Assembly: GCA_031459855.1 (NCBI GenBank) | Contig: JAVKHP010000001.1 | Location: 165,960-229,959 of the forward strand | From: Armatimonadota bacterium | GTDB taxonomy: Bacteria; Sysuimicrobiota; Sysuimicrobiia; Sysuimicrobiales; Humicultoraceae | Direction of reading: 5' to 3' | DNA: 64,000 nt | Part shown: in pieces, positions 36,817-56,534 of the stretch | Layout: every line of letters begins with the position of its first letter | Numbering within the stretch: position 1 is the stretch's first letter | Notes under the pieces: generated by a model | What the model was told of the DNA's origin: nothing | The model's database searches: none | What the model saw: the letters and a program-made list of their open reading frames with translations, nothing else | Program-made: the position numbers and the translations under genes

Positions 36817-36831
36817 AACAGTTTCTCCTCG

Positions 36832-37846
<1,015 letters not shown>

Positions 37847-37849
37847 GGC

Positions 37850-40116: not shown

Positions 40117-40839
40117 ATGCGCCTGTGCTACCTGGGCGGCGAGGAGCGTCGTCGCTACCTGCAGGACGCCGCGAGTCCGGGGGTGACGGTCGAGACGCTC
40201 GACTTTGCGCCGTCGTGGCCGCGGCCGGACGTCATTGAGTCGCTCTACGACGAGGCGCTGCTGGCGCCGTGGACCGTCGAGATGTGCGTGGAGGCCGAAC
40301 GCCGGGGCTTCGACGCGGTCGTCACGGGCTGCGCCGGCGACCCGGGCGTGGAGGCCGCGCGCGAGCTGGTCCGCATCCCCGTCATCGGGCCGGGACAGGC
40401 GGGCCTGTACGCGGCAGCCATGCTGGGCGACCGGTTCGCGGTGCTCTCACCGCTGGAGAGCACCGTGCGGCCGACACGCGCGCTGGTCCGCCACTACGGC
40501 CTGGCCGAGAAGTGCGCAGCGGTGCGGTCCGTGGACTGCAGCGTGACGGAGTTGCGGGCGGGCCGACACGAGACCTTCGAGAAGGTGCTCGCGGTGGCCC
40601 GCCGCTGCCTCGCCGAGGACGGTGCCGACACGCTGGTGCTGGCGTGCGCGAGCCTGAGCCACCGGTTCGGCGACGCGCTGGCTGCCGCGCTGCCCGTGCC
40701 GGTGGTGAACGTGCTCCGGGCGTCGGTGCGCCTGGCCGAGTTCCTGGTGGGCAGCCGCCTGTCGCACTCGAAGGTCGCCTACCCCACGCCGACCGCACGC
40801 GGGCACGGCGCGGCGGTGCGGGCAGGAGGTGGCGCGTGA
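40117..40839 (+). CDS. Aspartate/glutamate/hydantoin racemase family protein
   Basis: A 240-residue protein with the two-Cys active-site layout: AVVTGCAGDPGVEAAREL (~residue 70) and LVLACASLSHRFGDAL (~176), and IPVIGPGQAGLYAAA between. The spacing fits HyuE-type hydantoin racemases and the Asp/Glu racemase family (PF01177). ATG preceded by AAAAGGGGGAG. Its stop overlaps the start of the M28-fold hydrolase (GTGA), suggesting both act on the same chiral amide or amino-acid derivative. Confidence 0.83.
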   Translation: MRLCYLGGEERRRYLQDAASPGVTVETLDFAPSWPRPDVIESLYDEALLAPWTVEMCVEAERRGFDAVVTGCAGDPGVEAARELVRIPVIGPGQAGLYAAAMLGDRFAVLSPLESTVRPTRALVRHYGLAEKCAAVRSVDCSVTELRAGRHETFEKVLAVARRCLAEDGADTLVLACASLSHRFGDALAAALPVPVVNVLRASVRLAEFLVGSRLSHSKVAYPTPTARGHGAAVRAGGGA

Positions 40840-42626
40840 CGGCCCGATTGCGCGCGCGTCGCCCCGATGCCGCAGGGCACGACCTCCTGGCGCAGGTGTC
40901 GCTGCCCCGCATGTGGCGCGACCTCGAGGTCCTGTGCAGCATCGACCGCACCTCGGGCACCGCGGGCGAGCGGCGGGCCATGGACTACATCGTGCAGCAA
41001 CTGCGCGCCGAGGGCATCCGCGTCGAGGTGCACGAGTTCGATGCGTACCTGAGTTACCCACGGGAGGCCCGCATCGAGGTGCTCGCTGGCGAGGGGCTGC
41101 CGCGCGAGATCGCGGCGAAGACGCGCGCGTTCTCCGGCACGACCCCGCCCGAGGGCATCACCGCCGAGGTCGTGTACGTGCCCGGCGGGGTCGACCTGTT
41201 CCGTGACACCGAGACCCACCGGCGGCTGGAGGCCGGCGCCATCGCCGGCAAGATCGTGCTCTCCGAGGCCGGCAGCCGGCGCAACATGCAGACCGCCCAG
41301 GAGCGCGGGGCGGTGGCCTACCTGCACACCTGGCCCAGCGACGAGGACGCAATCCACGAAGGGATCGTCTCGCCCGTCTGGGGCGCGCCGACGCCCGAGG
41401 TCGTCCACGCGTTCCCCCGCATCCCCATCCTGAGCATCACGAAGGCCAGCGGTGAGGCGCTGCGCGCCGCCCTGGCCCGGGGCCCGGTGCGCCTGCGGGT
41501 GCACAGTCGCGTCGAGACCGGGTGGCGGCCGGTGGTGTTGCCGGTGGCGCACGTGCCGGGCCGCACCGACGAGTTCGTGCTGTTCTCCGGGCACGTCGAC
41601 TCCTGGCACCTGGGTGCGACCGACAACGCCACGGGCAACGTGGTCACCATGGAGGTCGCGCGGATCCTGCACGGCGCCCGGGCGCGGTTGTACCGGGGGG
41701 TGCGCTGGGCGTTCTGGCCGGGGCACTCCACCGGGCGGTACGCGGGCTCGACCTGGTACGCCGACCGCTTCTGGCACGAGCTGGCCGAGCGCTGCGTGTT
41801 GCACATCAACTGCGACTCGCCGGGTGTCGTCGGCGCGACCGTCTACGACCCCATCACTGCCACGGCCGACGTGGCCGGCTTCGGCACCGCGCTGGTCCGG
41901 GAGCTCACCGGGCAGACGGTGGGCTGGGAGCGGCCCGTGCGGGCCGGCGACCAGTCGTTCTGGGGCGCAGGCGTGCCGTCGCTGTTCATGGGCCTGTCGC
42001 TGCGGCCCCCGGGACAGCGCTGGCACGTGGGCGGCTCGGGCCTGGGCTGGTGGTGGCACACCGAGGCCGACACGCTGGACAAGGTCGATCCCGAGGTCCT
42101 GCGCCGCGACGCGCAGATCTACCTGCTGGCGGCCTACCGGTTCGCTGCAGTCCCCCTCCCGCCCCAGGAGGTGGCGCCCGCCGTGGACGAGTTGCGGACC
42201 GTGGTGGCGGCGTTGCAGCGCGACGTGGGCGATCGGTTCGACCTGACGCCGGTGGCCGCGGCCCTGGACGGCCTGGCGCAGCGGGCGCGCCGGTTCGACC
42301 GGATCGCCGCGGCCACCGCGCGCGCAGGCGGCCCGCCGCGCCGTGTCGAAGCGCTGGTGCGTGCGCGGCGGGCCGCCATCCGGGCGCTGGTGCAGGCGGG
42401 CTACGTGGCCGGCAGCCCTTTCGACCACGACCCGGCGGTGCCGCAGCGACCGCTGCCCGCCCTGGCCGATGCGCAAGACCTGAAGCACCTGGACCCGGCG
42501 TCGCACGAGGCGCGGCTGCTGGTCACGCGTCTGGGGCGCCGACGCACCCAGGTCGTCCACACGCTGCAGGCCGCCGCGGCCGCCCTGGACGCGGTGGTGG
42601 GCAGCGACCGATCTCGTCGGAGGTGA
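40836..42626 (+). CDS. M28-fold hydrolase with PA-like insert, atypical active site (paralogue 1)
   Basis: A 596-residue protein of the M28 peptidase/aminopeptidase family. N-terminal part followed by a PA-like insert (~100-230), then the catalytic fold: LFSGHVDSWHLGATDNATGN (His and Asp ligands), HINCDSPG (Asp ligand) and WWWHTEADTLDKVD (final His). Where M28 enzymes have the catalytic/zinc Glu-Glu (W..EE.GLLGS), this one has FWPGHSTGRYAGSTWYADRF, with no Glu. A paralogue at 49680-51452 shares the change. A C-terminal helical region of ~150 residues is extra. Probably an amide hydrolase coupled to the racemase, not a proven peptidase. Confidence 0.82.
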   Translation: MTARLRARRPDAAGHDLLAQVSLPRMWRDLEVLCSIDRTSGTAGERRAMDYIVQQLRAEGIRVEVHEFDAYLSYPREARIEVLAGEGLPREIAAKTRAFSGTTPPEGITAEVVYVPGGVDLFRDTETHRRLEAGAIAGKIVLSEAGSRRNMQTAQERGAVAYLHTWPSDEDAIHEGIVSPVWGAPTPEVVHAFPRIPILSITKASGEALRAALARGPVRLRVHSRVETGWRPVVLPVAHVPGRTDEFVLFSGHVDSWHLGATDNATGNVVTMEVARILHGARARLYRGVRWAFWPGHSTGRYAGSTWYADRFWHELAERCVLHINCDSPGVVGATVYDPITATADVAGFGTALVRELTGQTVGWERPVRAGDQSFWGAGVPSLFMGLSLRPPGQRWHVGGSGLGWWWHTEADTLDKVDPEVLRRDAQIYLLAAYRFAAVPLPPQEVAPAVDELRTVVAALQRDVGDRFDLTPVAAALDGLAQRARRFDRIAAATARAGGPPRRVEALVRARRAAIRALVQAGYVAGSPFDHDPAVPQRPLPALADAQDLKHLDPASHEARLLVTRLGRRRTQVVHTLQAAAAALDAVVGSDRSRRR

Positions 42627-42631
42627 AGCAC

Positions 42632-44227
42632 ATGCATCCGATCCGTCGTGTGACGCTCCGGTTCGCCCCACTGGTGGTGGCGGCTGTCGCCCTGGCCGTG
42701 GCCGGCAGCGGGCTGCCGGGCGCCGCGCAGGCGCGCGGCGGGACGTTCACGCTGCCGATCATCGACAACGCCCGCATGTGGCCCATCGTGGGCGGCCTCC
42801 CCAACATCCTGGTCAACAAGGTGCTCTACAGCACCCTGGTCAAGTACGACCCCAACAACTGGCAGCCGGTGGGCGACCTGGCGGAGCGGTGGACCCTGGG
42901 CGACGACAGGCTGACGTGGACCTTCACCCTGCGCCGCAACGTCACCTGGCACGACGGCCAGCCCTTCACGGCCCGGGACGTGAAGTTCACCATCGAGCGC
43001 CTGTGGCTGAACCCGCAGGTGCCCTTCTTCCAGCGGGGCAACGTGAGCGAGATCAGCCGCGTGGACATCGTCGACGACTACACCGTGCGCATCGTGACCA
43101 AGACGCCGTTCGCCACGCTGCCGGTGATGCTGGGCTACCTGGCCAACATCCTGCCCGAGCACATCCTGGGCCGCTACACCGTCGACCAGCTGCGCAACCC
43201 CGTGGAGTTCCTGCGCAACCCCATCGGCACCGGGCCGTTCCGGTTCGCCGAGGCGGTGCTGGGCTCCCACGTCCGCCTGGTGGCCTACGACCGGTACTTC
43301 GGCGGCCGGCCGCGGCTCGATGCCATCGTCTTCCGCGTGGTGGCCGACCTGGAGCAGCAGCTGGCGCAGCTGCAGACCGGCCAGCTCGACCTGATGATCA
43401 TCGAACCCCACCAGCTGAGCCTGGTGCAGCGGATGCCCAACGTCCAGGTGATCGACGCACCCCAAGTCAACTACACCTTCGTGGCCTTCAACCACAAGCT
43501 CGAGCCGTTCGGCGACCGCAAGGTGCGCCAGGCCCTGACCCACGCGGTGGACCGCAAGGCGATCCTGGACAAGATCTACCAGGGGAAGGGCCGCCTGGCC
43601 ACCGGGCCCATCAACCCGCTGATCAGCTGGGCGTACACCGACAAGGTCCACCAGTTTCCCTACAACCCCGAGCTGGCCAACCGCCTGCTGGAGGAGGCGG
43701 GCTGGACACGGGGGCCCGACGGCATCCGGCGCAAGGGCGGGCAGCCCCTGAAGATCACCATCGACGTCGACCGCGGCAACCCGGTGCGCGAGCAGACCGC
43801 GGTGGTGACGCGGCAGTACTGGCGCGACGTGGGCGTGGACGCCGACGTGCGCGTGAGCGAGTTCAACGCCCTGCTCTCGCGCATCCGGTCGCGGCCCAAC
43901 CCGCTGCAGACCTGGACGCTGTGGTACATCACGCCGCCGGAGGCCGACATCCTGGCCTACTACCACACCCAGGGCACCCTCAACGAGTTCGGCTACGCCA
44001 ACCCCGAGCTCGACCGCCTGCTGGAGGCGGGCCGCGCGACCTTCGACCTCAAGGAGCGGGCGAAGATCTACCACCAGGCCCAGAAGTTCATGGCCTGGGA
44101 CGCGCCGGTGATCTACCTGGTCTACCCCCACGAGCTGCAGGCGATGAACCGCCGCGTGCAGGGGTGGGTGAAGATGGGCTACCGGGACGCCCTGACGCAC
44201 ATGACGAACGTCTCGATCGGACGCTGA
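42632..44227 (+). CDS. Peptide-type ABC transporter substrate-binding protein (family 5)
   Basis: A 531-residue secreted binding protein (SBP_bac_5). A signal peptide (LVVAAVALAVAGSGLPGAAQA) is followed by KVLYSTLVKYDPNNWQPVGD, the family motif LRRNVTWHDGQPFTARDVKF, NPIGTGPFRF and VRQALTHAVDRKAILDKIYQ. ATG with GGAGGTGA, five bases after the M28 stop. It should bind a peptide, amide or other small solute for the permeases downstream. Confidence 0.92.
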   Translation: MHPIRRVTLRFAPLVVAAVALAVAGSGLPGAAQARGGTFTLPIIDNARMWPIVGGLPNILVNKVLYSTLVKYDPNNWQPVGDLAERWTLGDDRLTWTFTLRRNVTWHDGQPFTARDVKFTIERLWLNPQVPFFQRGNVSEISRVDIVDDYTVRIVTKTPFATLPVMLGYLANILPEHILGRYTVDQLRNPVEFLRNPIGTGPFRFAEAVLGSHVRLVAYDRYFGGRPRLDAIVFRVVADLEQQLAQLQTGQLDLMIIEPHQLSLVQRMPNVQVIDAPQVNYTFVAFNHKLEPFGDRKVRQALTHAVDRKAILDKIYQGKGRLATGPINPLISWAYTDKVHQFPYNPELANRLLEEAGWTRGPDGIRRKGGQPLKITIDVDRGNPVREQTAVVTRQYWRDVGVDADVRVSEFNALLSRIRSRPNPLQTWTLWYITPPEADILAYYHTQGTLNEFGYANPELDRLLEAGRATFDLKERAKIYHQAQKFMAWDAPVIYLVYPHELQAMNRRVQGWVKMGYRDALTHMTNVSIGR

Positions 44228-44230
44228 GCC

Positions 44231-44279
44231 GCGCCCCGCGCATGGTGGTTGCGGACATCGACCACGGCGCCCGGGGCGC
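44231..44279 (+). other. Intercistronic hairpin between binding protein and permease
   Basis: Perfect 8-bp arms GCGCCCCG (44231-44238) and CGGGGCGC (44272-44279) enclose an inner GTGGT/ACCAC stem. It begins three bases after the binding-protein stop. Such hairpins can raise binding-protein mRNA over permease mRNA. The second peptide-transporter operon has a comparable hairpin at 54824-54849. Confidence 0.5.
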
Positions 44280-44315
44280 ATGCCTCGATCGGGCGCTGCG
44301 GCACGCCCTCCTGCC

Positions 44316-45263
44316 GTGAGCCGTTACCTCCTGCGCCGGGCGCTCCACACGGTGATTTTGCTGGTGGTGGTCACCGTGGTGGTCTTCGCCATGGTCACCC
44401 AGGCCCCGGGCGGGCCGTCGATCCTGCTCGACCGCAACATGGGCCCCGAGGAGCTGGCGCGGATGCGGGCGCTGCTGGGCCTGGACCAGCCCGTGCACGT
44501 GCAGTACGTGCGGTGGCTGGCCCAGGTGCTGCGCGGCAACCTGGGCGTCTCCTACCAGGCCGGGCTGCCGGTGCTGGAGATCATCCTCCAGATGCTGCCC
44601 AACACGCTGCTGCTGTCGGCGGCGAGCCTGGCCCTGGCGCTGGTGGTGGCGATTCCGGCGGGCGTGCTCTCCGCAGCCCGGCCCTACTCGGCGGTCGACC
44701 ACGCGGTGACGACGCTCTGTTTCTTCGGCATCTCGGTGCCCACGTTCTGGTACGGGCTGATGCTGATCGTGCTGTTCTCCATCGTGCTGGGCTGGTTGCC
44801 GCCGGGCGGCATGCACACCCTGGGCGGCGAGCGCTCGGCGCTGGACGTGGCGCGCCACCTGGTCCTGCCCGCGGTGGTGCTCGGCACGGCCAACATGGCC
44901 CTCTTCGCACGCTACACGCGCTCGGCGACCATGGCCGTGCTGCGCCAGGACTACGTGCGCACCGCCCGCTCGAAGGGGCTGCCCGAGCGCAGCGTGCTCT
45001 ACCGGCACGCGCTGCGCAACGCCCTGCTCACGGTGGTGACGGTGGTGGGCCTGCAGCTGCCGCGTCTGGTGGGAGGCGCGGCGATCACCGAGACCGTCTT
45101 CGCCTGGCCCGGCATGGGCAGCCTGGCCGTGCGGGCCGCGTTCGAGCGCGACTACCCCATGATCATGGGCATCACGCTGGTGATCTCGGCGGTGGTGGCG
45201 GCCAGTACGCTGCTGGTGGACGTGCTCTATGTCTACCTGGACCCGCGCATCCGCTACGACTGA
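44316..45263 (+). CDS. Peptide-type ABC transporter permease (DppB-like)
   Basis: A 315-residue inner-membrane permease: SRYLLRRALHTVILLVVVTV at the start, LDQPVHVQYVRWLAQVLRGN, RYTRSATMAVLRQDYVRTAR and ARSKGLPERSVLYRHALRNA (the EAA-type loop), ending YVYLDPRIRYD as in DppB/OppB. GTG at 44316 is chosen because an ATG at 44280 would sit directly against the hairpin and add 12 residues unlike the family. Confidence 0.88.
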   Translation: MSRYLLRRALHTVILLVVVTVVVFAMVTQAPGGPSILLDRNMGPEELARMRALLGLDQPVHVQYVRWLAQVLRGNLGVSYQAGLPVLEIILQMLPNTLLLSAASLALALVVAIPAGVLSAARPYSAVDHAVTTLCFFGISVPTFWYGLMLIVLFSIVLGWLPPGGMHTLGGERSALDVARHLVLPAVVLGTANMALFARYTRSATMAVLRQDYVRTARSKGLPERSVLYRHALRNALLTVVTVVGLQLPRLVGGAAITETVFAWPGMGSLAVRAAFERDYPMIMGITLVISAVVAASTLLVDVLYVYLDPRIRYD

Positions 45264-45464
45264 CCGCCTGCCGCCGGCGCAGAGGGCGCGGATGGCCCGG
45301 AGGGTCCGTCCGCGCGCCGCCAGCGCGGGCCGTGGCCCGGCGCGCGGTGGCGACGCGTGCAGGGCGGCGCGTGCCCTCCGTGCCACTGGCGGCCCGAGCC
45401 GGTGCGGCGCCGTGCGTCCGGGGCCGCCCGGCGCGGACGCACGGCGTGGGGAGGCGGGCTAGCC

Positions 45465-46358
45465 GTGGAGTGGCGCCTTCCGCGCGCTGCGCCGGTGCCC
45501 GCCCTGCCCCGGACGCGCACGCCCGCCAGCCGCATCGTGGCGCGCTTCCGGCGCAACCGCCTGGCGGTGGCGGCGCTGGGCGTGCTGGTGGTGATCCACC
45601 TGGCCGTGGCCGCGGCACCCTGGCTCGCGCCCGGCGACCCGGAGGCGATCGCACTCGGCGAGCGGCTGCGGCCGCCGGGCCGCCCTTACTGGCTGGGCAC
45701 CGACGAGTACGGCCGCGACGTGCTCACGCGGCTGCTGTACGGGGGCCGGGTCTCGCTGGCCGTGGGGCTGGCGTCGATGCTGGCGTCGATGGTCATCGGC
45801 GTGGCGGTGGGCGCCGCGGCCGGCTACCTCGGCGGGGTCGCCGACGTGGTCCTGATGCGGATCACCGACGGGATGCTGGCGGTGCCGCTGTTCTTCGTGG
45901 CGCTGCTGGCCCTGGCGATGCTGGGGACGACCCTGCTGAACCTGGTGGCGGTGATCGCCCTCACGTCGTGGATGACCGTGGCCCGGGTGGTGCGCGCCGA
46001 GGTGCTGCGCACGCGCACGCTGGAGTTCGTGGTGGCCGCCCGCGCGCTGGGGTGCAGCGGGTGGCGCATCCTCACCCGCCACGTGGTGCCCCAGTCCATC
46101 CCCTCGATCACGGTGGCCGCCACCCTGGGCGTGGCGTACGCGGTGCTGCTGGAGACGTCGCTCTCGTTCCTGGGCCTGGGCGTGCAGCCGCCGGCGCCGT
46201 CGTGGGGCAACATGCTGTCCGGGGCACGGGCCTACCTGCGCACGGTCCCCGGGCTGGCGGTCTTCCCGGGCGTGATGATCTTCATCACGGTGCTGTGCTA
46301 CAACTGGTTCGGCGATGGCCTGCGCGACGCCATCGACCCGACCCTCGCCGAACGGTGA
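45465..46358 (+). CDS. Peptide-type ABC transporter permease (DppC-like)
   Basis: A 297-residue permease with the DppC N-terminus RFRRNRLAVAALGVLVVIHL, HWLGTDEYGRDVLTRLLYGG-type block (here YWLGTDEYGRDVLTRLLYGG), the EAA loop VVAARALGCSGWRILTRHVV and LLETSLSFLGLGVQPPAPSW. GTG at 45465 follows GGGGAGG. The ~200-bp gap before it holds nothing I can support. No ATPase genes (DppD/DppF) follow, so the transporter must borrow them. Confidence 0.88.
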   Translation: MEWRLPRAAPVPALPRTRTPASRIVARFRRNRLAVAALGVLVVIHLAVAAAPWLAPGDPEAIALGERLRPPGRPYWLGTDEYGRDVLTRLLYGGRVSLAVGLASMLASMVIGVAVGAAAGYLGGVADVVLMRITDGMLAVPLFFVALLALAMLGTTLLNLVAVIALTSWMTVARVVRAEVLRTRTLEFVVAARALGCSGWRILTRHVVPQSIPSITVAATLGVAYAVLLETSLSFLGLGVQPPAPSWGNMLSGARAYLRTVPGLAVFPGVMIFITVLCYNWFGDGLRDAIDPTLAER

Positions 46359-46436
46359 GCCCCGCGGGCCGGCGCGACGCGACCGGCACGCCATGGCCTG
46401 GACGCTGGCGACGAGACTGCCGAGACGAGGTGCGCG

Positions 46437-47573
46437 ATGCGTGAACCGATCACCATCGCCCTGACGGGCGACCTGATGCTGGAACGCCCCATCACCCCGG
46501 CGGGCGGCGGCCGCTCGCCGGGCAGCGCCGCGGTGTGGGAGGTCTTCCACCAAGCCGACCTGGTGTTCGTGAACCTGGAGGTGCCGCTGACGACGCGCGG
46601 CGCGCCGGCCGACAAGCACGTGGCGTTCCGCGCCGACCCCCAGCTGGCGGGCGAGCTCCGGGCGGCGGGCATCGACGTGGTGACGCTGGCCAACAACCAC
46701 ATGCTCGACTACGGCCCCGAGGGGTTGTTCGACACGCTGGAGGCGCTGCAGCGCGTGGGCCTGCCGGCGGTCGGGGCCGGGCGCACCCTGGCCGAGGCGC
46801 TGGCCCCGGCCGTGCTGACCGCCCGGGGCGTGCGGGTCGCGTTCCTGGGCCTGGCCTCGACCCTCCCGGTGGGGAGCGCCGCCGCCCCCGACCGGCCGGG
46901 CATCGCGCCGGTGCACGTCACGACGCTGTACGTGGTCGACAGCGCCGGGCTGGACGAGACGCCCGGCAAGGCGCCCTACGTCGAGACGCGGTGCTGGCCC
47001 GGTGACGTGGAGGCGGCGGCCGAGGCGACCGCACAGGCCAAGCGCCAGGCCGACGTCGTGGTGGTCGGTGTGCACTGGGGCGTGCCCCACGGGTTCGTCG
47101 CGGCCTTCCAGAGCCCGGTGGCCGCCTACCAGCGACCGCTGGCCGAAGCGCTCATCGACGCCGGCGCCGACGTCGTGGTCGGCCACCATCCCCATGTGCT
47201 GCACGGCATCGACGCCATCGGGGGGCGGCCCGTCTTCTACAGCCTGGGCAACTTCCTCTTCCACTCGGTGACGCCGGGCCGGTTCCCCGTGTTGCGGCGG
47301 CCCGACCCGCCCTATTCATGGAAGAGCCTGCGCTCGCCGGTCAACCTCGACTCGGTGATCGCCCTGGTCACCTGCGACGCCGGCGGCGTGCGCGACGTCG
47401 AGCTCGTCCCCGTGGTGATGAACGCCGAGGGCGATCCCGAGCTGGCCACCGGCACCGATGCGGCGCGCATCCTGGCCAGCCTGGCGGACCAGTCGGCACC
47501 CTACGGCGTGACGATCACCGTCGTTGGCGACCGCGGGCGGGTGGCCCTGCAGCCGGCCGGGGTGGCGCGGTGA
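46437..47573 (+). CDS. CapA-family metallophosphatase-like protein
   Basis: A 378-residue CapA/PgsA-type protein with the whole motif series: IALTGDLML, DLVFVNLEVPLTTRG, VVTLANNHMLDYGPEGL, VVVVGVHWG, DVVVGHHPHVLHGIDAIGG and FYSLGNFLFHS. Family members take part in poly-gamma-glutamate synthesis or act as phosphatases. There is no transmembrane anchor or signal peptide, so this one is probably cytoplasmic. ATG with GAGGTG. Its context (peptide transport, amide hydrolases) suggests a catabolic rather than capsule role. Confidence 0.85.
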   Translation: MREPITIALTGDLMLERPITPAGGGRSPGSAAVWEVFHQADLVFVNLEVPLTTRGAPADKHVAFRADPQLAGELRAAGIDVVTLANNHMLDYGPEGLFDTLEALQRVGLPAVGAGRTLAEALAPAVLTARGVRVAFLGLASTLPVGSAAAPDRPGIAPVHVTTLYVVDSAGLDETPGKAPYVETRCWPGDVEAAAEATAQAKRQADVVVVGVHWGVPHGFVAAFQSPVAAYQRPLAEALIDAGADVVVGHHPHVLHGIDAIGGRPVFYSLGNFLFHSVTPGRFPVLRRPDPPYSWKSLRSPVNLDSVIALVTCDAGGVRDVELVPVVMNAEGDPELATGTDAARILASLADQSAPYGVTITVVGDRGRVALQPAGVAR

Positions 47574-48766
47574 GCCCCATGGACGTGACCATCGTCGGTG
47601 CGGGCGCCATCGGCGGCACGCTCGGCGCCTACCTGGCGCGGGCCGGGCATGCCGTCACCTTCGTGGATGCGGCCGCCGACCACGTGGCGGCCATCAACGC
47701 CCGCGGGCTCACCATCGAGGGCCAGCGGGAGACGTTCACCGTGCGGGCGCCGGCGCTGCTGCCGGCGCAGCTCCGCGGGCCGCTGGGCATGGTGTTCCTG
47801 GCGGTGAAGACGATGCACACCGAGGTGGCCACGGCGCAGATCGCCCCCCACCTGGCGCCCGACGGTGCCATCGTCTCGATGCAGAACGGCTTCAACGAGG
47901 AGCGCATCGCCGCCATCGTGGGCCCCGCGCGCACCATCGGGGCTTTCGTCAACTTCGGCGCCGACTACCAGGAGCCCGGGCGCATCCTCTACGGGGGCGG
48001 GGGCGCTCTGGTGATCGGGGAGCTGGACGGGCGGATCACCGACCGGGTGCGGGCGCTCGTGGACGCGCTGCGGACGGCGTTCCTCCCCCACACGCAGGCC
48101 ACCGACAACATCTGGGGCTACCTCTGGGGCAAACACGCCTACGCCGCCATGCTCAAGGCCACCGCGCTGGTCGACGCGCCTATCGCGGACGTGCTGGCCG
48201 ATCCCGGCGCGCGGCCGATGCTGGCCAACCTCGCGGCCGAGGTCCTGGCGGTCGCGGCGGCCGAGGGCGTGCGGCCCGAGGGCTTCGACGGCTTCGAGCC
48301 CGACGCGTTCGTGTTCCCGCCGCGCCGCGATCCCGCGCGCCTGGCCGCCAGCCTCGACCGGCTGGTGGCGTTCAACCGCGCGTCGCTCAAGGCCAAGAGC
48401 GGCGTCTGGCGCGACCTGGCGGTGCGCAGGCGCAAGACCGAGGTGGCGTGGGTCGTCGGCGAGCTACGCGCGCGGGCCGGCCGCCACGGGCTGCACATCC
48501 CGCTGGTCGAGGCCGTGGGCCAGATGATCGGCGAGATCGAAGCCGGCACGCGCCAGATGTCGTGGGACAACATCCGCCAGCTCGAGGCCCTCAACGCACG
48601 CGTGTACGGTCCGGACGCCACCGCGGGCGGCCCGGCCCGGGCAGCGGACCCGTCGGAGCGCACCGCCGGTCGTCCGGGGGGCGGTCCGCCGACCGCGCCC
48701 GCGGCAGGCGCAGGCACCGCGACCGCTGAGGCGGCTGCTGCCGGGGAGGCGACCGACGGTGTATGA
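47570..48766 (+). CDS. Ketopantoate reductase (PanE/ApbA) family protein
   Basis: A 398-residue NADP-dependent 2-oxoacid reductase. VTIVGAGAIGGTLGAYLARA is the nucleotide-binding start; GMVFLAVKTMHTEVA, VSMQNGFNEERIAAIVG and IWGYLWGKHAYAAMLKATAL (catalytic-type Lys) fit PanE/ApbA. The last ~45 residues are a Pro/Gly/Ala tail beyond the family length. GTG start overlaps the capA stop (GTGA); an ATG follows three codons later. In this cluster a role in reducing a 2-oxoacid from amide breakdown is as likely as pantothenate synthesis. Confidence 0.85.
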   Translation: MSPMDVTIVGAGAIGGTLGAYLARAGHAVTFVDAAADHVAAINARGLTIEGQRETFTVRAPALLPAQLRGPLGMVFLAVKTMHTEVATAQIAPHLAPDGAIVSMQNGFNEERIAAIVGPARTIGAFVNFGADYQEPGRILYGGGGALVIGELDGRITDRVRALVDALRTAFLPHTQATDNIWGYLWGKHAYAAMLKATALVDAPIADVLADPGARPMLANLAAEVLAVAAAEGVRPEGFDGFEPDAFVFPPRRDPARLAASLDRLVAFNRASLKAKSGVWRDLAVRRRKTEVAWVVGELRARAGRHGLHIPLVEAVGQMIGEIEAGTRQMSWDNIRQLEALNARVYGPDATAGGPARAADPSERTAGRPGGGPPTAPAAGAGTATAEAAAAGEATDGV

Positions 48767-49544
48767 GCCCGGGGCGTTTGCCGAGCGGGTGGTGCTGGTC
48801 TCGGGCGCGGCCCACGGCATCGGCCGCGGCATCTGCGAGGCGTTCGCGCGCCACGGCGCCCAGGTGTGGGCCACCGACGTCCTGGCGGCGGAGCTGGAGG
48901 AGACCGTGCGCCGCTGCCGGGCCGCAAGCGGGCGCGCCGAGGGACGGGTGCTGGACGTGACCGACGCGGCGGCCGTCGAGGCGCTCGTGGCCGACATCGG
49001 TCGCATCGCCGGCGGTGTGGAGATCCTGGTGCACGCTGCAGGCGGCGTGCAGGGCCAGGTGATGCAGCCCGTCGAGCGCGTCACACCCCAGCAGTGGCAT
49101 GCCATCGTGGACGCCAACCTCACCGGGGCCTTCCACCTGGTGCGCGCCGTGGTGCCCCAGATGAAGGCCCGTGGGTTCGGTCGCATCGTCACGATCTCGT
49201 CGGGCGCCGGGCGCTCGTACAGCCAGACCGGCATCCAGGCCTACGCCAGCGCCAAAGCCGGGCTGATCGGCTTCACCCGGCAGATCGCGCGCGAGCTGGG
49301 CGCGTTTGGCATCACCGCCAACTCGGTGGCGCCCGGGTTCGTGCTCTCCAACCCGGCCTCGATCCGCCAGTGGGAGGACCTGGGGCCCGAGGGCCAGCGC
49401 CGGTTCTTCGACGCGCTGGCCGTCAAGCGCCTCGGCGAGCCCGAGGACATCGCCTTCGCCGTGCTGTTCTTCGCGTCGCCGCGCGCAAGCTACGTCACGG
49501 GACAGACCCTGAGCGTCGATGGCGGCCGCTGGATGCTGGGATAG
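48759..49544 (+). CDS. Short-chain dehydrogenase/reductase
   Basis: A 261-residue classical SDR: VLVSGAAHGIGRGICEAFAR (TGxxxGxG-type), LVHAAGG, ANLTGAFHLVRAV, ISSGAGRSYSQTGIQAYASA with the YxxxK pair (YASAK), NSVAPGFV and the C-terminal YVTGQTLSVDGGRW. GTG start with GGGGAGG nine bases before, overlapping the previous gene by eight bases. Substrate unknown. Confidence 0.92.
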   Translation: MYEPGAFAERVVLVSGAAHGIGRGICEAFARHGAQVWATDVLAAELEETVRRCRAASGRAEGRVLDVTDAAAVEALVADIGRIAGGVEILVHAAGGVQGQVMQPVERVTPQQWHAIVDANLTGAFHLVRAVVPQMKARGFGRIVTISSGAGRSYSQTGIQAYASAKAGLIGFTRQIARELGAFGITANSVAPGFVLSNPASIRQWEDLGPEGQRRFFDALAVKRLGEPEDIAFAVLFFASPRASYVTGQTLSVDGGRWMLG

Positions 49545-49576
49545 CGCAAGCCGGCGCCGGGCAGCGCCGGCTGCGC
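49544..49576 (+). terminator. Strong hairpin after the SDR gene (possible terminator)
   Basis: Nine-base perfect arms AGCCGGCGC and GCGCCGGCT around a 6-base loop, extended outward by GCGC/GCGC with one bulged base, starting at the last base of the SDR stop codon. There is no U tract, so it may need Rho or act as an mRNA 3' barrier. Confidence 0.45.
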
Positions 49577-49679
49577 GGGCGGCGTGTAGCGCTGCGGGAG
49601 CGTGTCGGCAGGCGCCCGGCGGCCCGCGAGGACCGCATGGCGCACGGGTACGCGCACAACGTGATCCAGGAGGACGACG

Positions 49680-51452
49680 ATGCCACGGACGAGCACTGCG
49701 AACCAGATCCCCTTCGACCAGGTCCGCGCCGACCGCCTGATGGCCGACACCGAGGCGATCGCGCGGTGGGTGCGGCTGTCGGGCACCCCGGAAGAACTGG
49801 AGGCGGCGCGGTACGTGCAGGCCCAGCTGCGGCGGGCCGGATGCCGCACCCGGCTGCTCATGCACGACGCGTACATCAGTCTGCCGGGGCCGGCGGCCCT
49901 GACCGTCACCGCCGGCGGCGGGGCCACCGACGTGCCGTGCATCACGCACTCCTTCGCCGCGCCCACGGGCCCGGCGGGATTGGAGGCCGAGGCGGTCTAC
50001 GCGGGCGGCGACCCGACGCGCTTCGCAGCGGCCGGGGTGGCGGGGAAGGTCGCCGTGGTCGACGGCCTCGCCAGCCCCGGCGTGATCGCGGCCGCGGAGC
50101 GGGCCGGCGCCGCCGGCGTGGTGTGCCTCAACCACGACCCGCACGTGCACGAGATGATCGTCTCGACGGTCTGGGGCAGTCCGCCGCCAGACGCGCTGGA
50201 CCGGCTGCCGAAGATCCCGGTGGTCTCCGTGGCCGGCCGCGACGCCGGCCCGGTGCGCGAGACGATCCGCCGTGGCGGCGCGCGGGCCCGGCTGGTCACC
50301 GAGGTGCAGACCGGCTGGCGGACCACCCCGCTGGTGCTCGGTGACCTGCCCGGGGCGGTCGAGGACACGTTCGTGCTCTTCTCCGGGCACCTCGACTCGT
50401 GGCACCGCGGCGCCATGGACAACGGCTCGGCCAACGCCACGATGCTGGAGATCGCGCGGATCTTAGGCCGCGTCCGCCGCTATCGGGGCGTGCGCCTGGC
50501 GTTCTGGTCGGGCCACTCGCATGGCCGCTACTCGGGCTCGACCTGGTACGCCGATCACTTCTGGCACGAGCTCGACGCGCGGTGCGTGGCGCACGTGAAC
50601 GTCGACTCGACCGGCGGGCTGGGCGCGGTGGTCAACCGCCACGCCTACGTCATGCCCGAGGCGCGGGCAGTGGTCGAGGCGGCGGTCCGCGCGGTGGCCG
50701 GCGGGCGGTTCGAGGGCGCGCGGGTCACCCGCATGGGCGACCAGTCGTTCCTGGGCATCGGCATCCCGTCGCTGCTGATGGATATCTCCGAGCAGCCCGG
50801 CGACTCGCCCCACGCCAGCCGCGACTTCAGCGTCTTCTCGGGCGGTGACACGGGCGGGCTCGGCTGGTGGTGGCACACGACCGAGGACACCCCCGACAAG
50901 ATCGACCCCGCCCTGCTGGTGCGCGACTGCAAGATCTACCTGGGGGTGGTCTACACGCTGGCGACGGCGCCGGTGCTGCCGTTCGACTACGGCGCGACGG
51001 CCCGCGTGTGGCTGCAGGCGCTGCAGGCCGTCTCCGACGGCGCCCGGCGCTGGGTGGACCTGCGGCCCGCCCTGGCCGAAGCCCGCCGGCTGGCGCGGGC
51101 TGCGGTCGCGCTGCGGCGCCGCGCCGCAGCAGCAGCCCGTGCAGGCGACCGTCGCGCGGTGCGCGCGGTCAACGAGGCGCTGATGGCCATGGGGCGTGCG
51201 CTCATCCCGGTGGACTACACCCAGAGCGGGCGCTTCGACCACGACCCGGCCCTGACCCCCAAGGACCCGCCGCGGCTGGCCGCGCTGCGGGCGCTCGGGC
51301 AGGCGTCGGGCGACCAGGCCAAGCACCTGGCCGTGCGCGCCATCCGCGACCTGAACGCCATCCGCTACGCGCTGGGGCAGGCGGCCACGATCGCCGAACG
51401 GGCAGCCGCGGCGGCCGCGCCTGGCGCCCGGCGTGTCGCCCGGCGGCGCTGA
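49680..51452 (+). CDS. M28-fold hydrolase, atypical active site (paralogue 2)
   Basis: A 590-residue paralogue of the protein at 40836-42626 with the same domain order. LFSGHLDSWHRGAMDNGSAN (His, Asp), AHVNVDSTGG (Asp) and WWWHTTEDTPDKIDP (His) are kept. The expected Glu-Glu site reads FWSGHSHGRYSGSTWYADHF, again without Glu. A C-terminal Ala/Arg-rich helical domain follows. ATG with AGGAGG. Two copies with the same change argue for a distinct functional clade. Confidence 0.82.
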   Translation: MPRTSTANQIPFDQVRADRLMADTEAIARWVRLSGTPEELEAARYVQAQLRRAGCRTRLLMHDAYISLPGPAALTVTAGGGATDVPCITHSFAAPTGPAGLEAEAVYAGGDPTRFAAAGVAGKVAVVDGLASPGVIAAAERAGAAGVVCLNHDPHVHEMIVSTVWGSPPPDALDRLPKIPVVSVAGRDAGPVRETIRRGGARARLVTEVQTGWRTTPLVLGDLPGAVEDTFVLFSGHLDSWHRGAMDNGSANATMLEIARILGRVRRYRGVRLAFWSGHSHGRYSGSTWYADHFWHELDARCVAHVNVDSTGGLGAVVNRHAYVMPEARAVVEAAVRAVAGGRFEGARVTRMGDQSFLGIGIPSLLMDISEQPGDSPHASRDFSVFSGGDTGGLGWWWHTTEDTPDKIDPALLVRDCKIYLGVVYTLATAPVLPFDYGATARVWLQALQAVSDGARRWVDLRPALAEARRLARAAVALRRRAAAAARAGDRRAVRAVNEALMAMGRALIPVDYTQSGRFDHDPALTPKDPPRLAALRALGQASGDQAKHLAVRAIRDLNAIRYALGQAATIAERAAAAAAPGARRVARRR

Positions 51453-51603: not shown

Positions 51604-52557
51604 TCACCCCTCGGGGACCCCCACCGCCAGCAACGGGTCGCCAGGGTTCGTGGCGGGCGTCGTCACCACGAACAGCACCACGCCCGACGCCGGGCTGGTC
51701 ACCTCGGTCAGCGGCCGACCGAACCAGTCGCGGATCTCGCCGACGAGCGCGCCGGCCTCCACGCGGTCACCGACGCGCACCCGGGGGTAGAACAGCCCCG
51801 CGTGCGCCGAGCGGATCCAGGGGAACGCGACGATCCGCACGGGCGGCCGCACCGGCGCGGGCCGGCCCCGCAGCACCCCCAGGTGCTTGAGCACGTTGGC
51901 CACGCCCCGGGTGTGCACGCGCACCATCGCGGGGTCCAGCACGCCCTGGCCGCCGGCTTCGGGCAGGATGGCCGGGATGCCCGCAGCGGTCGCCGCGGCG
52001 TAGGCTGCGCCGTCGACGACGCCGTCCACGATGTGGCGGATGCCGAACGCCTCGGCCATGGCGCGCGCACGTGCCGCGACCTCGGACGCAGCGCCGCCGT
52101 GGTAGAGCGTGAAGGGCAGCAGGGCCTCGTTCAGGTCGCCGCCGTGCAGGTCGATGTAGGCGTCAGCGCGGGCGATGGCGGCGGTGAAGACCGCGTGGGC
52201 GATGCGCTCGGAGGCGGTGCCCTCGGGCGCGCCCGGGAAGACGCGGTTGAGGTTCTTGCCGTCCAGGGGACAGACGTAGATCGCGCGCGCGGCGAACGCC
52301 GGCGGGTTCGTGACGGGCACCACCACCACGGTCCCCCGCAGCCGGTGCGGGTCGAGGGCCTGCACGGTGCGGATCGCGGCCTCGATGCCCACGTACTCGG
52401 CGCCGTGGATGCCCGCGGTGATGCACACCGTCGGCCCCGGCCGGCGGCCGTGCAGCACCGCCACGGGCAGCGCCACGTCCAGCCCGGGGACCGGGATCGT
52501 GCCAAACGCGCGCTGGCCGCGCGGCGCGACGGCGGTACCCACCGTGTAGGTGTCCAT
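51604..52557 (-). CDS. Succinylglutamate desuccinylase/aspartoacylase-family deacylase
   Basis: A 317-residue zinc carboxypeptidase-fold (M14/AstE-AspA) deacylase. Zinc site: ITAGIHGAEYVGIEAAIRT (His, Glu) and AYIDLHGG (His); PLDGKNLNRVFPG provides the substrate Asn-Arg. A C-terminal beta domain (HAGLFYPRVRVGDRVEAGAL) is typical. It removes an acyl group from an N-acyl amino acid. It ends the second peptide-transporter operon and converges on M28 paralogue 2, giving a picture of imported N-acyl peptides or amides being deacylated. Confidence 0.88.
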   Translation of the reverse strand: MDTYTVGTAVAPRGQRAFGTIPVPGLDVALPVAVLHGRRPGPTVCITAGIHGAEYVGIEAAIRTVQALDPHRLRGTVVVVPVTNPPAFAARAIYVCPLDGKNLNRVFPGAPEGTASERIAHAVFTAAIARADAYIDLHGGDLNEALLPFTLYHGGAASEVAARARAMAEAFGIRHIVDGVVDGAAYAAATAAGIPAILPEAGGQGVLDPAMVRVHTRGVANVLKHLGVLRGRPAPVRPPVRIVAFPWIRSAHAGLFYPRVRVGDRVEAGALVGEIRDWFGRPLTEVTSPASGVVLFVVTTPATNPGDPLLAVGVPEG

Positions 52558-52605: not shown

Positions 52606-53526
52606 CTACACCCGCAGCCGCGGGTCCAGCGCGTCGCGCAGGCCGTCGCCCAGCAGGTTGAAGCCCAGCACTGCCAGCGCGATGGCCAGGCCCGGGAACG
52701 TGGCGATGTGCGGGGCCAGCAGCAGGAAGTCGCGGCCGGTGCTGACCATCAGCCCCCACGACGGGGTCGGCGGCTGGACGCCCAGCCCCAGGAACGACAG
52801 CGCGGCCTCCAGCAGGATCGCGCTGGCCATGTACAGCGCCGAGTAGACGATCACGATCGAGATGCAGTTGGGCAGGATGTGGCGCACGACGATGCGCAGC
52901 GTCCCGGCGCCCAGCGCCCGCGCGGCCGCCACGTACTCCTGCTCCTTGATGGACAGCACCGACCCGCGGATCACCCGGGCGAAGCCGGGCGTGGCCCAGA
53001 TGCCGACAGCCAGGATCGTGTTCTCCAGGCCCGGCCCCAGGGCGCTGACGATGGCGATGGCCAGCAGCAGGTACGGGAACGCCAGCAGGACGTCCAGCGC
53101 CCGCATCAGCGCCTCGTCGACGCCGCCGCCGAGGTAGCCCGCCAGCGTGCCGAGCAGCGTGCCCAGCGCCAATGCGATCAGCACCGACACCACGCCCACC
53201 AGCAGCGCCACGCGGCTGCCGTAGATCAGGCGGCTGGCGATGTCGCGGCCGAACTCGTCGGCGCCCAGCAGGTACTTCGGGCCGGGCGGCGTGCGCTTGT
53301 CCTCCAGGACCTGACGCGCCGGATCGGCCGGCGCGAGCCAGGGCGCGAAGACCGCCGCGATCACCAGCAGGCTGACGATCACCAGCCCGGCGAGCGCAAG
53401 CCGGTTGCGCCGGAAGCGCCGCCACGCCGCGCCCCCGGCCGAGACGTAGCCCGCCGGTCGGGCCGCCGCTCCCGCCGCCACTGCTTCGGCGACGGCCGCG
53501 TCGTCGGCGCGCGGGCGCAGGCTCAC
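52606..53526 (-). CDS. Peptide-type ABC transporter permease (DppC-like), second system
   Basis: A 306-residue permease: RRFRRNRLALAGLVIVSLLV, KYLLGADEFGRDIASRLIYG, the EAA loop YVAAARALGAGTLRIVVRHI and LLEAALSFLGLGVQPPTPSW. GTG at 53526 starts VSLRPRADD. The frame upstream is open to 53670 but Pro/Arg-rich. Lies 48 bases before the deacylase gene and 148 bases after dppB; no ATPase genes follow. Confidence 0.88.
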   Translation of the reverse strand: MSLRPRADDAAVAEAVAAGAAARPAGYVSAGGAAWRRFRRNRLALAGLVIVSLLVIAAVFAPWLAPADPARQVLEDKRTPPGPKYLLGADEFGRDIASRLIYGSRVALLVGVVSVLIALALGTLLGTLAGYLGGGVDEALMRALDVLLAFPYLLLAIAIVSALGPGLENTILAVGIWATPGFARVIRGSVLSIKEQEYVAAARALGAGTLRIVVRHILPNCISIVIVYSALYMASAILLEAALSFLGLGVQPPTPSWGLMVSTGRDFLLLAPHIATFPGLAIALAVLGFNLLGDGLRDALDPRLRV

Positions 53527-53674
53527 GCCACCCACCCCGGGTGCCGGACGCGCGCACGCGCCGGACGGGCGTGCGCCGGCGTGCAGGCCGCCCCCGCGTC
53601 GACCTGCGGGCCGGCAGTGCGCCGGCGCGCGGCGTCTGTGGCCACGGCCACCCGGCGGTCGCACCCGCACCCGC

Positions 53675-54595
53675 TCATCGGTACGTGATCCTGGGGTCCA
53701 GCGCCGCGTACGAGAGGTCGACCAGCAGGTTGATCACCACGAACGTGACCGCCAGCACCAGGACGCCGCCCTGCAGCAGCACGTAGTCGCGGGCGAAGAT
53801 GGCGCGCACGAGCATGCGGCCGATGCCCGGCCAGGCAAACACCGTCTCGGTCAGCACCGCGCCGCCCAGCAGCTGTCCGGTCTGCAGCCCCATGACCGTC
53901 ACGACGGGGATCAGCGCGTTGCGCAACGCGTGGTGGACCAGCACCCGCCGCTGGCCAGCCCCCTTGGCCCGCGCCGTGCGAATGTAGTCCTCGCGCAACA
54001 CCTCCAGCATCGTCGAGCGGGTCATGCGCGCCAGCATGGCGATCGTCGGGGTCGCCAGGGTGACGGCGGGCAGCACCAGGTGCAGCCACGTGCCGCGCCC
54101 GCCCGCCGGCAGCCAGCCCAGCCACAGGCTGAAGACCACGATGAGCACGATCCCGGTCCAGAAGATCGGCATCGAGAGCCCAAACAGCGAGACCACGCGC
54201 ACCAGGTTGTCGAACAGCGAGTAGGGCCAGCGCGCCGACAGCACGCCGAGCGGAATGCCCACGGCCGTGGCCAGCGCCAGGGCGGCGAGGCCCAGCTGCG
54301 CGGTCGCCGGCCAGACGTCGGCGATCTCCTCGTTCACCCGCCGCCCTTCCCGAATCGACCGGCCCAGGTCGCCCTGCGCCAGGCGCCCCAGGTAGCGGAC
54401 GTAGCGCACGGGCAGGGGCTGGTCGAGGTCCAGCGACTTCCGCAGCCGCTCCACCATCTCCTGGGTCGCGCCTTCCCCCAGCATCAGCGCGGCCGGATCG
54501 CCCGGGATCAGGTCGATGGTGGCCATGATGAGCAGCACCACGCCCAGCACGACCGGCACCGCGGCCAGGAGTCGACGGACGAGGAAGCGGGTCAT
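53675..54595 (-). CDS. Peptide-type ABC transporter permease (DppB-like), second system
   Basis: A 306-residue permease starting MTRFLVRRLLAAVPVVLGVV, with DLIPGDPAALMLGEGATQEM, LDQPLPVRYVRYLGRLAQGD, the EAA loop IRTARAKGAGQRRVLVHHAL and the C-terminal YAALDPRITYR. The ATG at 54595 is ~350 bases after the binding-protein stop. It forms the channel with the DppC-like protein downstream. Confidence 0.9.
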   Translation of the reverse strand: MTRFLVRRLLAAVPVVLGVVLLIMATIDLIPGDPAALMLGEGATQEMVERLRKSLDLDQPLPVRYVRYLGRLAQGDLGRSIREGRRVNEEIADVWPATAQLGLAALALATAVGIPLGVLSARWPYSLFDNLVRVVSLFGLSMPIFWTGIVLIVVFSLWLGWLPAGGRGTWLHLVLPAVTLATPTIAMLARMTRSTMLEVLREDYIRTARAKGAGQRRVLVHHALRNALIPVVTVMGLQTGQLLGGAVLTETVFAWPGIGRMLVRAIFARDYVLLQGGVLVLAVTFVVINLLVDLSYAALDPRITYR

Positions 54596-54823
54596 GGCGG
54601 GCGCAGGACGTGCAGCGGCTCAGGTCACGGCCCGGTGCGGTCGGCCGGCCCACAGCGTGGCCGCGCTGTGCCGTGGCTCCACCCACATCGTGACCACGCC
54701 GTGCGGTGGGCCGATCCACATCGCGGTGACTCCGGTGACCGGCACGGGACGGTCGGAGCGAACCGGGCGCCCGCAGCGCGGGGTACTCGGGGTGCCCGAG
54801 GAATATGGCCGGTAGGCCCCAGG

Positions 54824-54849
54824 GGGGCGGGGCCGGCCGGCCCCGCCCC
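54824..54849. other. Perfect 26-bp GC palindrome between binding protein and permease
   Basis: The 26 bases form one uninterrupted palindrome (GGGGCGGGGCC core mirrored). It lies in the 349-bp gap (54596-54944) between the binding-protein gene and dppB; no gene is supported in that gap. It can form a very stable hairpin in mRNA, a likely differential-expression element, or be a protein-binding site. Confidence 0.55.
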
Positions 54850-54944
54850 GTACGGGCTACCTTCCCCGACCCGCCCCCACGCTGTGCGCGGCCCCGCCCC
54901 GCGCCGTGCGCGCCTCACCCGGCAGGCCGCACCCGGGCATCGCC

Positions 54945-56534
54945 TCAGCGCTGGATCCAGATGTACGCGAACCCCTGGTTGTACTCGATCGGGTGCGGCA
55001 CGAACCCCTGCACCGCCGCCTTCATCACCGCGATCTCCTTGGTGGTGTAGAACGGCACGAACATGATGTCGCGCGCGATCAGGTCCTGCGCCCGCCCGTA
55101 CAGGGCCTGGCGCTCGGCGGGGTCGAGGCTACGGCGCGCGGCGTCCACCAGCCGGTCGAACTCGGGGTTGACGTAGCGCCACGTGTTCCACCCGCGGGGC
55201 GGTGCCTGGTCCGAGCGGAACATGGGCAGCAGGCTGTAGTCGGCGTCGGCCGTGGTCGTCACCCAGCCCAGGGTGAACAGGTGGTAGTCCAGCGTCGCGG
55301 CGCGCACGGTGGTGAAGACCGTCGCCCACTCCAGGAACGAGATCTCCAGCCGCACGCCGATCTGCCGGAGCTGCGCCTGGTAGGCCTCGGAGATCTCGGC
55401 GTCCTTGAAGTAGCGACCGCGCGCCGAGATGAGCGTCAGGACCAGCGGGATGCCCTCGCGCTGCATGATCCCGTCGGGCCCGGGCCGGAAGCCCGCCTCC
55501 TGCAGCAGCGCGCGGGCCCGCTCGGGGTTGTAGGGGTAGAGCGTGTCGAGCCCCATGGGCTTGTAGCCGAAGACGCCGGGGGCGAGGATGCCGTCGGCGG
55601 GGCTCGCCGCGCCCTCGAGGATGTTCTCGAGAATGGCCTTGCGGTTGGCGGCCATGACCAGGGCCCGGCGCACCCGCACGTCGGACAGCGGCGGGCGGGT
55701 CAGGTTCATGCCGATGAACACCACACGCAGCCCGGTCGCCTCGGCCACCGTGAAGTTCGGGTCGCGGCGGAACGCCGGCAGCTGGGCGGGCGCCGGCACC
55801 AGGACCATGTCCACCTCACCGGTGCGCAGCGCGATCATCCGGGCCGACTCCTCCGGGATCACGCGGAACACGATGCGGTCGAGGTAGGGCTTGGGGCCCC
55901 AGTAGTCGTCGTTGCGCACCACCGAGATCCGGTCGTTGGTCCGCCACTCCTCGAACTTGAACGGCCCGGTCCCCACGGGCCGGCGGCTGAACTCGGCGCC
56001 CAGCCGCTGCACGGCCGTGGGGCTGACGATGCCGGCGTAGACCATGGCCACGCTGTAGAGCAGGGGGGCGTAGGGCTCGGTGGTCACGATGTCGACGGTG
56101 TGGTCGTCCACGACCTCGGCCCCCTTGATCGGCCCGGCCAGGCTCGCCCAGCGCGCGGGCGTGCGCGGGTCGAAGGCGCGGTCGAAGGTGAACTTCACGG
56201 CTGCCGCGTTGAACGGCGTGCCGTCGTGGAACCGCACGCCGCGCCGCAGCGTGAAGCGGATGCGCGTGGGCGACATGACCCGGTAGCCCGTGGCCAGCAC
56301 CGGCCGGATCTTCATGTCCGGGCCCATGGTGACCAGCGGCTCCAGGATCATCTGGTAGATCCACGCGCCCGGTGCCGTGGTCTCGAAGTGCGGGTCGAGC
56401 GACACGGCGTCGACGGGGCGCGCGATGGTGAGCGTCCCGCCGCGGGTCGGGCTGGCCGGGCCCGACAGGACCGGAGGGGCACCCACCATCACGGCCAGGG
56501 CCAGGACCAGCAGTCCCACGCGGACTCGTCGCAT
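54945..56534 (-). CDS. Peptide-type ABC transporter substrate-binding protein (family 5), second system
   Basis: A 529-residue SBP_bac_5 protein. Signal peptide VGLLVLALAVMVGAPPVLSG; mature GGTLTIARPVDAVSLDPHFE, the family motif LRRGVRFHDGTPFNAAAVKF, RPVGTGPFKFEEW, VRRALVMAANRKAILENILE and FVPFYTTKEIAVMKAAVQGF. ATG at 56534 with a near-perfect AGGAGGTGA. First gene of the second peptide-type operon. Confidence 0.93.
   Translation of the reverse strand: MRRVRVGLLVLALAVMVGAPPVLSGPASPTRGGTLTIARPVDAVSLDPHFETTAPGAWIYQMILEPLVTMGPDMKIRPVLATGYRVMSPTRIRFTLRRGVRFHDGTPFNAAAVKFTFDRAFDPRTPARWASLAGPIKGAEVVDDHTVDIVTTEPYAPLLYSVAMVYAGIVSPTAVQRLGAEFSRRPVGTGPFKFEEWRTNDRISVVRNDDYWGPKPYLDRIVFRVIPEESARMIALRTGEVDMVLVPAPAQLPAFRRDPNFTVAEATGLRVVFIGMNLTRPPLSDVRVRRALVMAANRKAILENILEGAASPADGILAPGVFGYKPMGLDTLYPYNPERARALLQEAGFRPGPDGIMQREGIPLVLTLISARGRYFKDAEISEAYQAQLRQIGVRLEISFLEWATVFTTVRAATLDYHLFTLGWVTTTADADYSLLPMFRSDQAPPRGWNTWRYVNPEFDRLVDAARRSLDPAERQALYGRAQDLIARDIMFVPFYTTKEIAVMKAAVQGFVPHPIEYNQGFAYIWIQR

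Follow-up and report, generated by a model that had tools for sequence, protein, structure and literature searches.

The window analysed here is a stretch of 64,000 nucleotides from an Armatimonadota bacterium (assembly GCA_031459855.1, contig JAVKHP010000001.1, positions 165,960 to 229,959, forward strand; GTDB lineage Bacteria; Sysuimicrobiota; Sysuimicrobiia; Sysuimicrobiales; Humicultoraceae). It carries two complete genes for proteins of the M28 peptidase fold, P0001 and P0002, in which the canonical active-site Glu-Glu pair is replaced by His-Ser. These genes and their neighbours are as follows.

40117..40839, plus strand: Asp/Glu/hydantoin racemase (PF01177, E 6.5e-38), translationally coupled to P0001
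40836..42626, plus strand: P0001, subclade A His-Ser M28-fold protein, 596 aa, complete (Pfam, conservation, AF2)
42647..44227, plus strand: SBP_bac_5 peptide-type solute-binding protein (PF00496, E 3e-93)
44316-45263 and 45456-46358, plus strand: DppB-type and DppC-type permeases (PF00528)
46437..47573, plus strand: PGA_cap protein (PF09587, E 5.6e-69), distantly like the lasso-peptide epimerase MslH (NF038314, well under its cut-off)
47582..48766, plus strand: ApbA/ketopantoate-reductase-like dehydrogenase (PF02558/PF08546; TIGR00745 over its cut-off)
48759..49544, plus strand: SDR dehydrogenase (PF13561)
49680..51452, plus strand: P0002, subclade B His-Ser M28-fold protein, 590 aa, complete (Pfam, conservation, AF2)
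51604..52557, minus strand: AstE/AspA-fold deacylase, DoeB-like (PF24827; TIGR02994 under its cut-off)
52606..56600 (outer end approximate), minus strand: second Dpp-type permease pair and solute-binding protein (ORFs; SBP5/Dpp family clustering)

P0001 begins with a GTG codon that lies within a four-base overlap (GTGA) with the stop of the upstream racemase gene. The racemase contains both catalytic-type cysteines (in TGCAGDPG and LACASLS) and is one of three PF01177 genes in the source genome, which also encodes five His-Ser M28 genes alongside ordinary Glu-Glu M28 genes. Both M28 genes in the window are preceded by an RBS-like GGAGG and have a coding-like third-position GC of approximately 0.94. 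Elsewhere in the window, positions 35150-38959 of the minus strand hold apparent thiamine genes (ThiO-, ThiG- and ThiE-like, from ORF reading), followed by an ornithine-cyclodeaminase-like gene.

Architecture and predicted fold

P0001 and P0002 are 41% identical to one another, and match Peptidase_M28 (PF04389) with E-values of 8e-15 and 9e-18 (55.5 and 65.2 bits, against a curated cut-off of 21.3); P0002 additionally gave a weak Pfam match to the PA domain. The AlphaFold (AF2) model of P0002 (pLDDT 95.4, pTM 0.94) superimposes on PSMA/GCPII with a Z score of 35.6 over 539 of its 590 residues (2.7 Å), on the transferrin receptor with a Z score of 35.5 over 533 residues and on the bacterial aminopeptidase BSAP with a Z score of 36.4 over 384 residues. 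The P0001 model (pLDDT 92.0) matches TfR1 and PSMA with Z scores of 36 and 34, respectively, over 542-550 residues. Since the matches to PSMA and the transferrin receptor run over the full length, the proteins have the whole PA, M28 and helical-domain body, which extends beyond the aminopeptidase domain. This architecture refines the original prediction, as does the stepwise loss of the Glu-Glu pair (Glu-Glu, His-Glu, His-Ser) described below, and it indicates that complete relatives with PSMA/TfR architecture exist in bacteria and archaea.

The closest parallels are GCPII (glutamate carboxypeptidase II, human PSMA) and NAALADL1 (MEROPS M28B), which share the PA domain, the M28 domain, the C-terminal helical body and the H, D, D, H metal ligands; a profile match to residues 352-734 of NAALADL1 was also obtained. 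The N-terminal membrane or signal segment of GCPII, by contrast, is not seen here: no hydrophobic N-terminal segment was observed in the window proteins, and no signal peptide was evident at the N-terminus of P0001. Transferrin receptor 1, a non-enzyme, has the same architecture and likewise lacks the base Glu, but loss or variability of the metal ligands, as expected of a TfR-type pseudoenzyme, was not encountered in the His-Ser clade, where all four are near-invariant. Bacterial M28 aminopeptidases (BSAP/YwaD and the Aneurinibacillus and Aeromonas enzymes) share the catalytic-domain fold and ligand order, but these largely secreted enzymes have the Glu-Glu pair and no C-terminal helical domain. 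The Pfam TFR_dimer family (PF04253) gave no match in the window proteins or in the phylum, in a scan whose controls were silent too. A sequence search of the PDB returned no solved structure from the His-Ser clade, the nearest entry being 2ek8 (E 1e-37).

The altered active site and its conservation

The motif series of P0001 reads FSGHVDSW...TDN...FWPGHSTGRYAGSTWYAD...NCDS...AGDQSF...WWWHT, and that of P0002 reads FSGHLDSW...MDN...FWSGHSHGRYSGSTWYAD...NVDS...MGDQSF...WWWHT. Alignment to M28 proteins places His-Ser in both where the general base and a zinc ligand (Glu-Glu) are normally found, and the remaining four ligands (H, D, D and H) are present. The corresponding positions, all on the plus strand, are as follows.

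41592..41624: P0001 metal ligands H253 and D263 (bridging Asp), at the two ends of the range (M28/GCPII alignment, conservation)
41724..41738: P0001 H297-S298...R301, at the Glu-Glu place (alignment, conservation)
41814..41951: P0001 ligand D327 and invariant D372 (GDQSF), at the two ends (alignment, conservation)
42057..42059: P0001 last His ligand, H408 (alignment, conservation)
50148..50150: P0002 H157, in the PA domain, specific to the His-Ser clade (conservation)
50388..50420: P0002 metal ligands H237 and D247, at the two ends (alignment, conservation)
50514..50528: P0002 H279-S280...R283, at the Glu-Glu place (alignment, conservation)
50604..50741: P0002 ligand D309 and invariant D354 (GDQSF), at the two ends (conservation)
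50874..50876: P0002 last His ligand, H399 (conservation)

The assignment follows unambiguously from counting along the chain: offsets from the strand Trp (+3 and +4) and to the following Gly (+6) superimpose the glutamates on His and Ser, with an extra residue falling after the Gly. An alternative alignment, in which the His is an insertion and a later Glu serves as base, was rejected because counting from the strand Trp gives the same result as counting from the next Gly, and because the His-Glu clade shares with the His-Ser clade the placement of the extra residue after the Gly. Nor does any other conserved Glu obviously fill the site, as judged by sequence. The sole highly conserved glutamates near the catalytic and N-terminal parts are E257, which lies in a core helix and is shared with ordinary M28 proteins, and E39 (at least 90%), which is likewise not new; E158 is variable.

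In GCPII, Glu424 acts as a proton shuttle; one zinc is bound by Glu425 and His553 and the other by His377 and Asp453, with Asp387 as the bridge between them (PMC8538779). By comparison, the His377/Asp453/Asp387 site is complete in the window proteins and His553 is kept, while Glu424 has become His, Glu425 has become Ser and one residue has been added behind the Gly. The place of Tyr552, immediately ahead of the last ligand, is taken by Trp (W398 in P0002), and pairwise alignment over variable loops revealed no obvious counterparts of the carboxylate readers Arg210, Lys699 and Tyr700. The window proteins are homologous to M28B but depart from the Glu-Glu signature that defines the catalytic M28 family.

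A scan of bacterial and archaeal genomes yielded 80 loci, and every homologue from it that covers the site is of the His-Ser type, bar one frameshifted sequence; an apparent 'GR' at locus L092 was an out-of-frame reading in a frameshifted metagenome sequence and was excluded. Conservation was then assessed over a larger alignment of 94 distinct sequences of the His-Ser type (561 columns, P0002 numbering). The base-position His (H297/H279) is present in all 94 and in six of six His-Glu relatives, Ser occupies the zinc-ligand place in 93, and the GDQSF Asp (D372/D354) and W398 are found in every one. The four ligands (H237, D247, D309 and H399) are conserved at 98-100%, which bears out the original prediction that they are retained while Glu-Glu is missing, and together with the new His and Ser they rank within the top 23 columns. 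The His-Ser pair is thus far beyond chance, and near-invariance of ligands and new pair across 94 homologues is not what decay would produce. The conserved block, predicted as GHSxGRYxGSTWYAD, in fact takes the form GHSx[GA][RK][YF], as a quarter of subclade B has GHSHARY. Among 43 genomes of the source phylum, match scores are bimodal, with full-length members far above ordinary M28 proteins (124 bits or less) and several His-Ser paralogues per genome.

A sister clade (L127 and L130-L134) reads A/G-H-E at the same place, so that the base is His and the zinc-ligand Glu is kept. With the motif columns left out, a tree rooted on human NAALADL1 (a long branch, its row taken from the printed alignment) sets all His-bearing proteins apart by a branch with support of 95/96; the His-Glu group forms a clade (100/98), and the His-Ser group has support of 90/95. 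The earlier view of a coherent clade with an altered base and metal site agrees with this support and with the four retained ligands. P0001 and P0002 fall in two old subclades, A and B respectively; as a single clade, A is the less secure (two changes in the tree). Because the His-Glu clade already possesses the His, that residue predates loss of the ligand Glu, and the simplest order of changes is from Glu-Glu to His-Glu (with one residue added after the Gly) and then to His-Ser. The His-Ser branch further acquired a PA-domain His (position 157), a basic residue (Arg or Lys) at position 283 and a Trp at position 398. The three states offer a natural series for studying how a two-metal peptidase may swap its general base and then drop a metal ligand and still work.

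Most His-Glu members have all ligand positions intact. In L127 of that clade the bridging Asp is Cys (TCNATGN), in L130 the final His is Gln (WYQS), and one His-Ser-type member (L137) reads His-Val; some members may therefore be inactive.

Gene partners across genomes

Neighbours were counted within 4.5 kb of 46 subclade-A and 80 subclade-B genes. Dpp-type transporters accompany 25 of the 46 subclade-A genes, and PGA_cap proteins occur at 11 of these loci and at seven of the 80 subclade-B loci. Nine PF01177 racemases, from at least eight genomes, are found around the 46 subclade-A genes; in the comparison of subclades, 8 of 45 subclade-A loci have one, versus none of 80 in subclade B (Fisher p 0.0002, with flanks that differ in length and loci that are only partly independent). 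The coupling to a racemase pointed out in the original prediction for one paralogue is thus recurrent and, among His-Ser proteins, peculiar to subclade A; in the His-Glu clade, a racemase occurs at one of six loci. The racemase-bearing genomes range from Armatimonadota-like bacteria to haloarchaea, and include a haloarchaeon, Nitratireductor, Deinococcota and Acetobacteraceae. A second subclade-A gene of the source genome has M20, amidohydrolase and racemase genes in its vicinity, along with a Dpp transporter of its own.

The 80 subclade-B loci contain SDR (27), ApbA-like (21), M20 (21), DoeB/AstE-like (14) and RidA (11) genes. Elsewhere in the clade, HyuA and HyuB lie between two His-Ser M28 members in Ketogulonicigenium, rhizobial plasmids have an operon of GntR, M20, M28 and amino-acid ABC genes, and dipeptidases are also among the partners. 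These genes fit cytosolic breakdown of small imported amides, and their diversity argues against one single substrate. With racemases, HyuA/HyuB, M20 proteins and dipeptidases nearby, chiral amide or hydantoin-type substrates are reasonable for subclade A. From such operons, undescribed catabolic routes can be suspected in soil bacteria, rhizobia, gut Clostridia and haloarchaea.

In gut and anaerobic Clostridia (L037, L074 and L075), an M20 gene lies directly 5' of the M28 gene, and molybdenum hydroxylase or aldehyde:ferredoxin oxidoreductase genes are found near the pair. A housekeeping neighbourhood, not a catabolic operon, was observed in Thermomicrobia, where the subclade-B gene sits between RidA and GreA-LysS (L021, L026, L029, L034, L054, L056, L058, L059, L063, L066 and L081). 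Tandem His-Ser M28 pairs, often of different subclades, occur in one operon at L076, L078, L015, L048 and L151, with an enolase-superfamily (MR_MLE) gene between the two at L078; it is conceivable that such pairs form hetero-oligomers.

Proposed chemistry and alternatives

A site that is fixed in a widespread branch, and located in uptake-and-breakdown operons, suggests that the His-Ser proteins are probably working enzymes with altered chemistry rather than decayed peptidases. On balance, we favor the proposal that they are cytosolic metal-dependent amide (C-N) hydrolases with the PSMA/TfR body plan, which would use a His general base to break down small imported compounds. The His that replaces the general-base Glu (H297 in P0001, H279 in P0002) would activate the metal-bound water, probably held in place by the invariant GDQSF Asp (D372/D354). 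Replacement of the Glu ligand by Ser points to a single strong metal site in place of two, with the second metal probably weak, absent or bound by another residue, and the new Arg/Lys (R301/R283) and PA-domain His (H174/H157) would reshape that half of the site. The substrate of subclade A (P0001) is probably a chiral amide, taken before or after inversion by the coupled racemase, while subclade B (P0002) probably partners SDR, ApbA-like and DoeB-like enzymes.

Two comparisons bear on the role of the His. An engineered E151H Aeromonas aminopeptidase carries the same replacement of Glu by His at the general-base position, albeit as a laboratory mutant with an intact zinc-ligand Glu, so that its natural parallel is the His-Glu clade and not the window proteins. 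That study was reportedly prompted by the presence of His at the same place in the D-aminopeptidase DppA. The mutant is termed 'functional' in the title of the report (Bzymek 2005, cited in PMC4320195 and PMC3426542), and to the extent that this title can be relied on, a His-base amide hydrolase is the simplest reading. In glutaminyl cyclase, an acyltransferase of the M28 superfamily, a single hydrogen-bond network includes both Asp305 and Glu201, the base (PMC10435661). Although this enzyme keeps its own Glu-Glu, lacks the PA and helical domains and catalyzes another reaction, it has an Asp near the base position, of which D354 appears by motif alignment to be the counterpart. The Asp of SDYAPF in NAALADL1 also matches D354. 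With an invariant Asp matched to the one beside the superfamily base, a His-Asp general base would be the simplest proposal.

A bolder reading, which we regard as rather unlikely, is that the clade gave up two-zinc peptide hydrolysis, and that a single-metal site with the His-Asp base, the Arg and the PA-domain His opens chiral cyclic amides (hydantoin-like) or performs another non-peptidase reaction, which would make these proteins a new class of enzymes with the PSMA body plan. It is also unlikely that the His stands in for the lost zinc-ligand Glu instead of the base, with the metals rebuilt as H/D/D and D/H/H and either D354 or the metal hydroxide alone acting as base. Glu424 and Glu425 are adjacent at the dinuclear center, His is a common zinc ligand and D354 is invariant, all of which would suit such a rearrangement; the His-Glu clade, however, has the His while the ligand Glu is kept, indicating that the His did not arise as its substitute.

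That the fold is retained as a binding or scaffold protein with a dead site, as in the transferrin receptor or nicastrin, seems quite improbable. The base and one ligand are gone, and the transferrin receptor, which shares the architecture, resembles the models in fold as closely as PSMA does. Against this, the four ligands (H, D, D and H), the new His and the new Ser all stand near the top of the 561 columns in conservation (the opposite of decay), the genes are located in catabolic operons of soluble enzymes and there are several paralogues per genome. We consider non-hydrolytic chemistry at the same metal site (ring closure or opening, a lyase reaction or acyl transfer) distinctly improbable: glutaminyl cyclases demonstrate that the fold supports cyclization with one zinc (PMC10435661), and HyuA/HyuB and hydantoin-type racemases are among the partners, yet the partners are for the most part transporters and amide hydrolases, as is usual for simple breakdown. 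Finally, it is very improbable that the literal G-H-S-x-G of most members, with its Ser in 93 of 94, is a serine-hydrolase nucleophile motif arisen within the M28 fold for metal-assisted attack, since Ser280 of the P0002 model lies mid-loop (residues 277-284, between strand 270-276 and helix 285-293), four residues past the strand and five ahead of the helix without forming a nucleophile elbow, the second Gly is Ala in a quarter of subclade B and the metal ligands are retained.

No description of the clade, of a bacterial pseudo-M28 protein or of these operon combinations was found in the literature searched, which was covered in part, and MEROPS or CDD may have unnamed entries. Public annotation designates members of the clade plainly as 'M28 family peptidase', and peptidase counts that include His-Ser genes are probably wrong.
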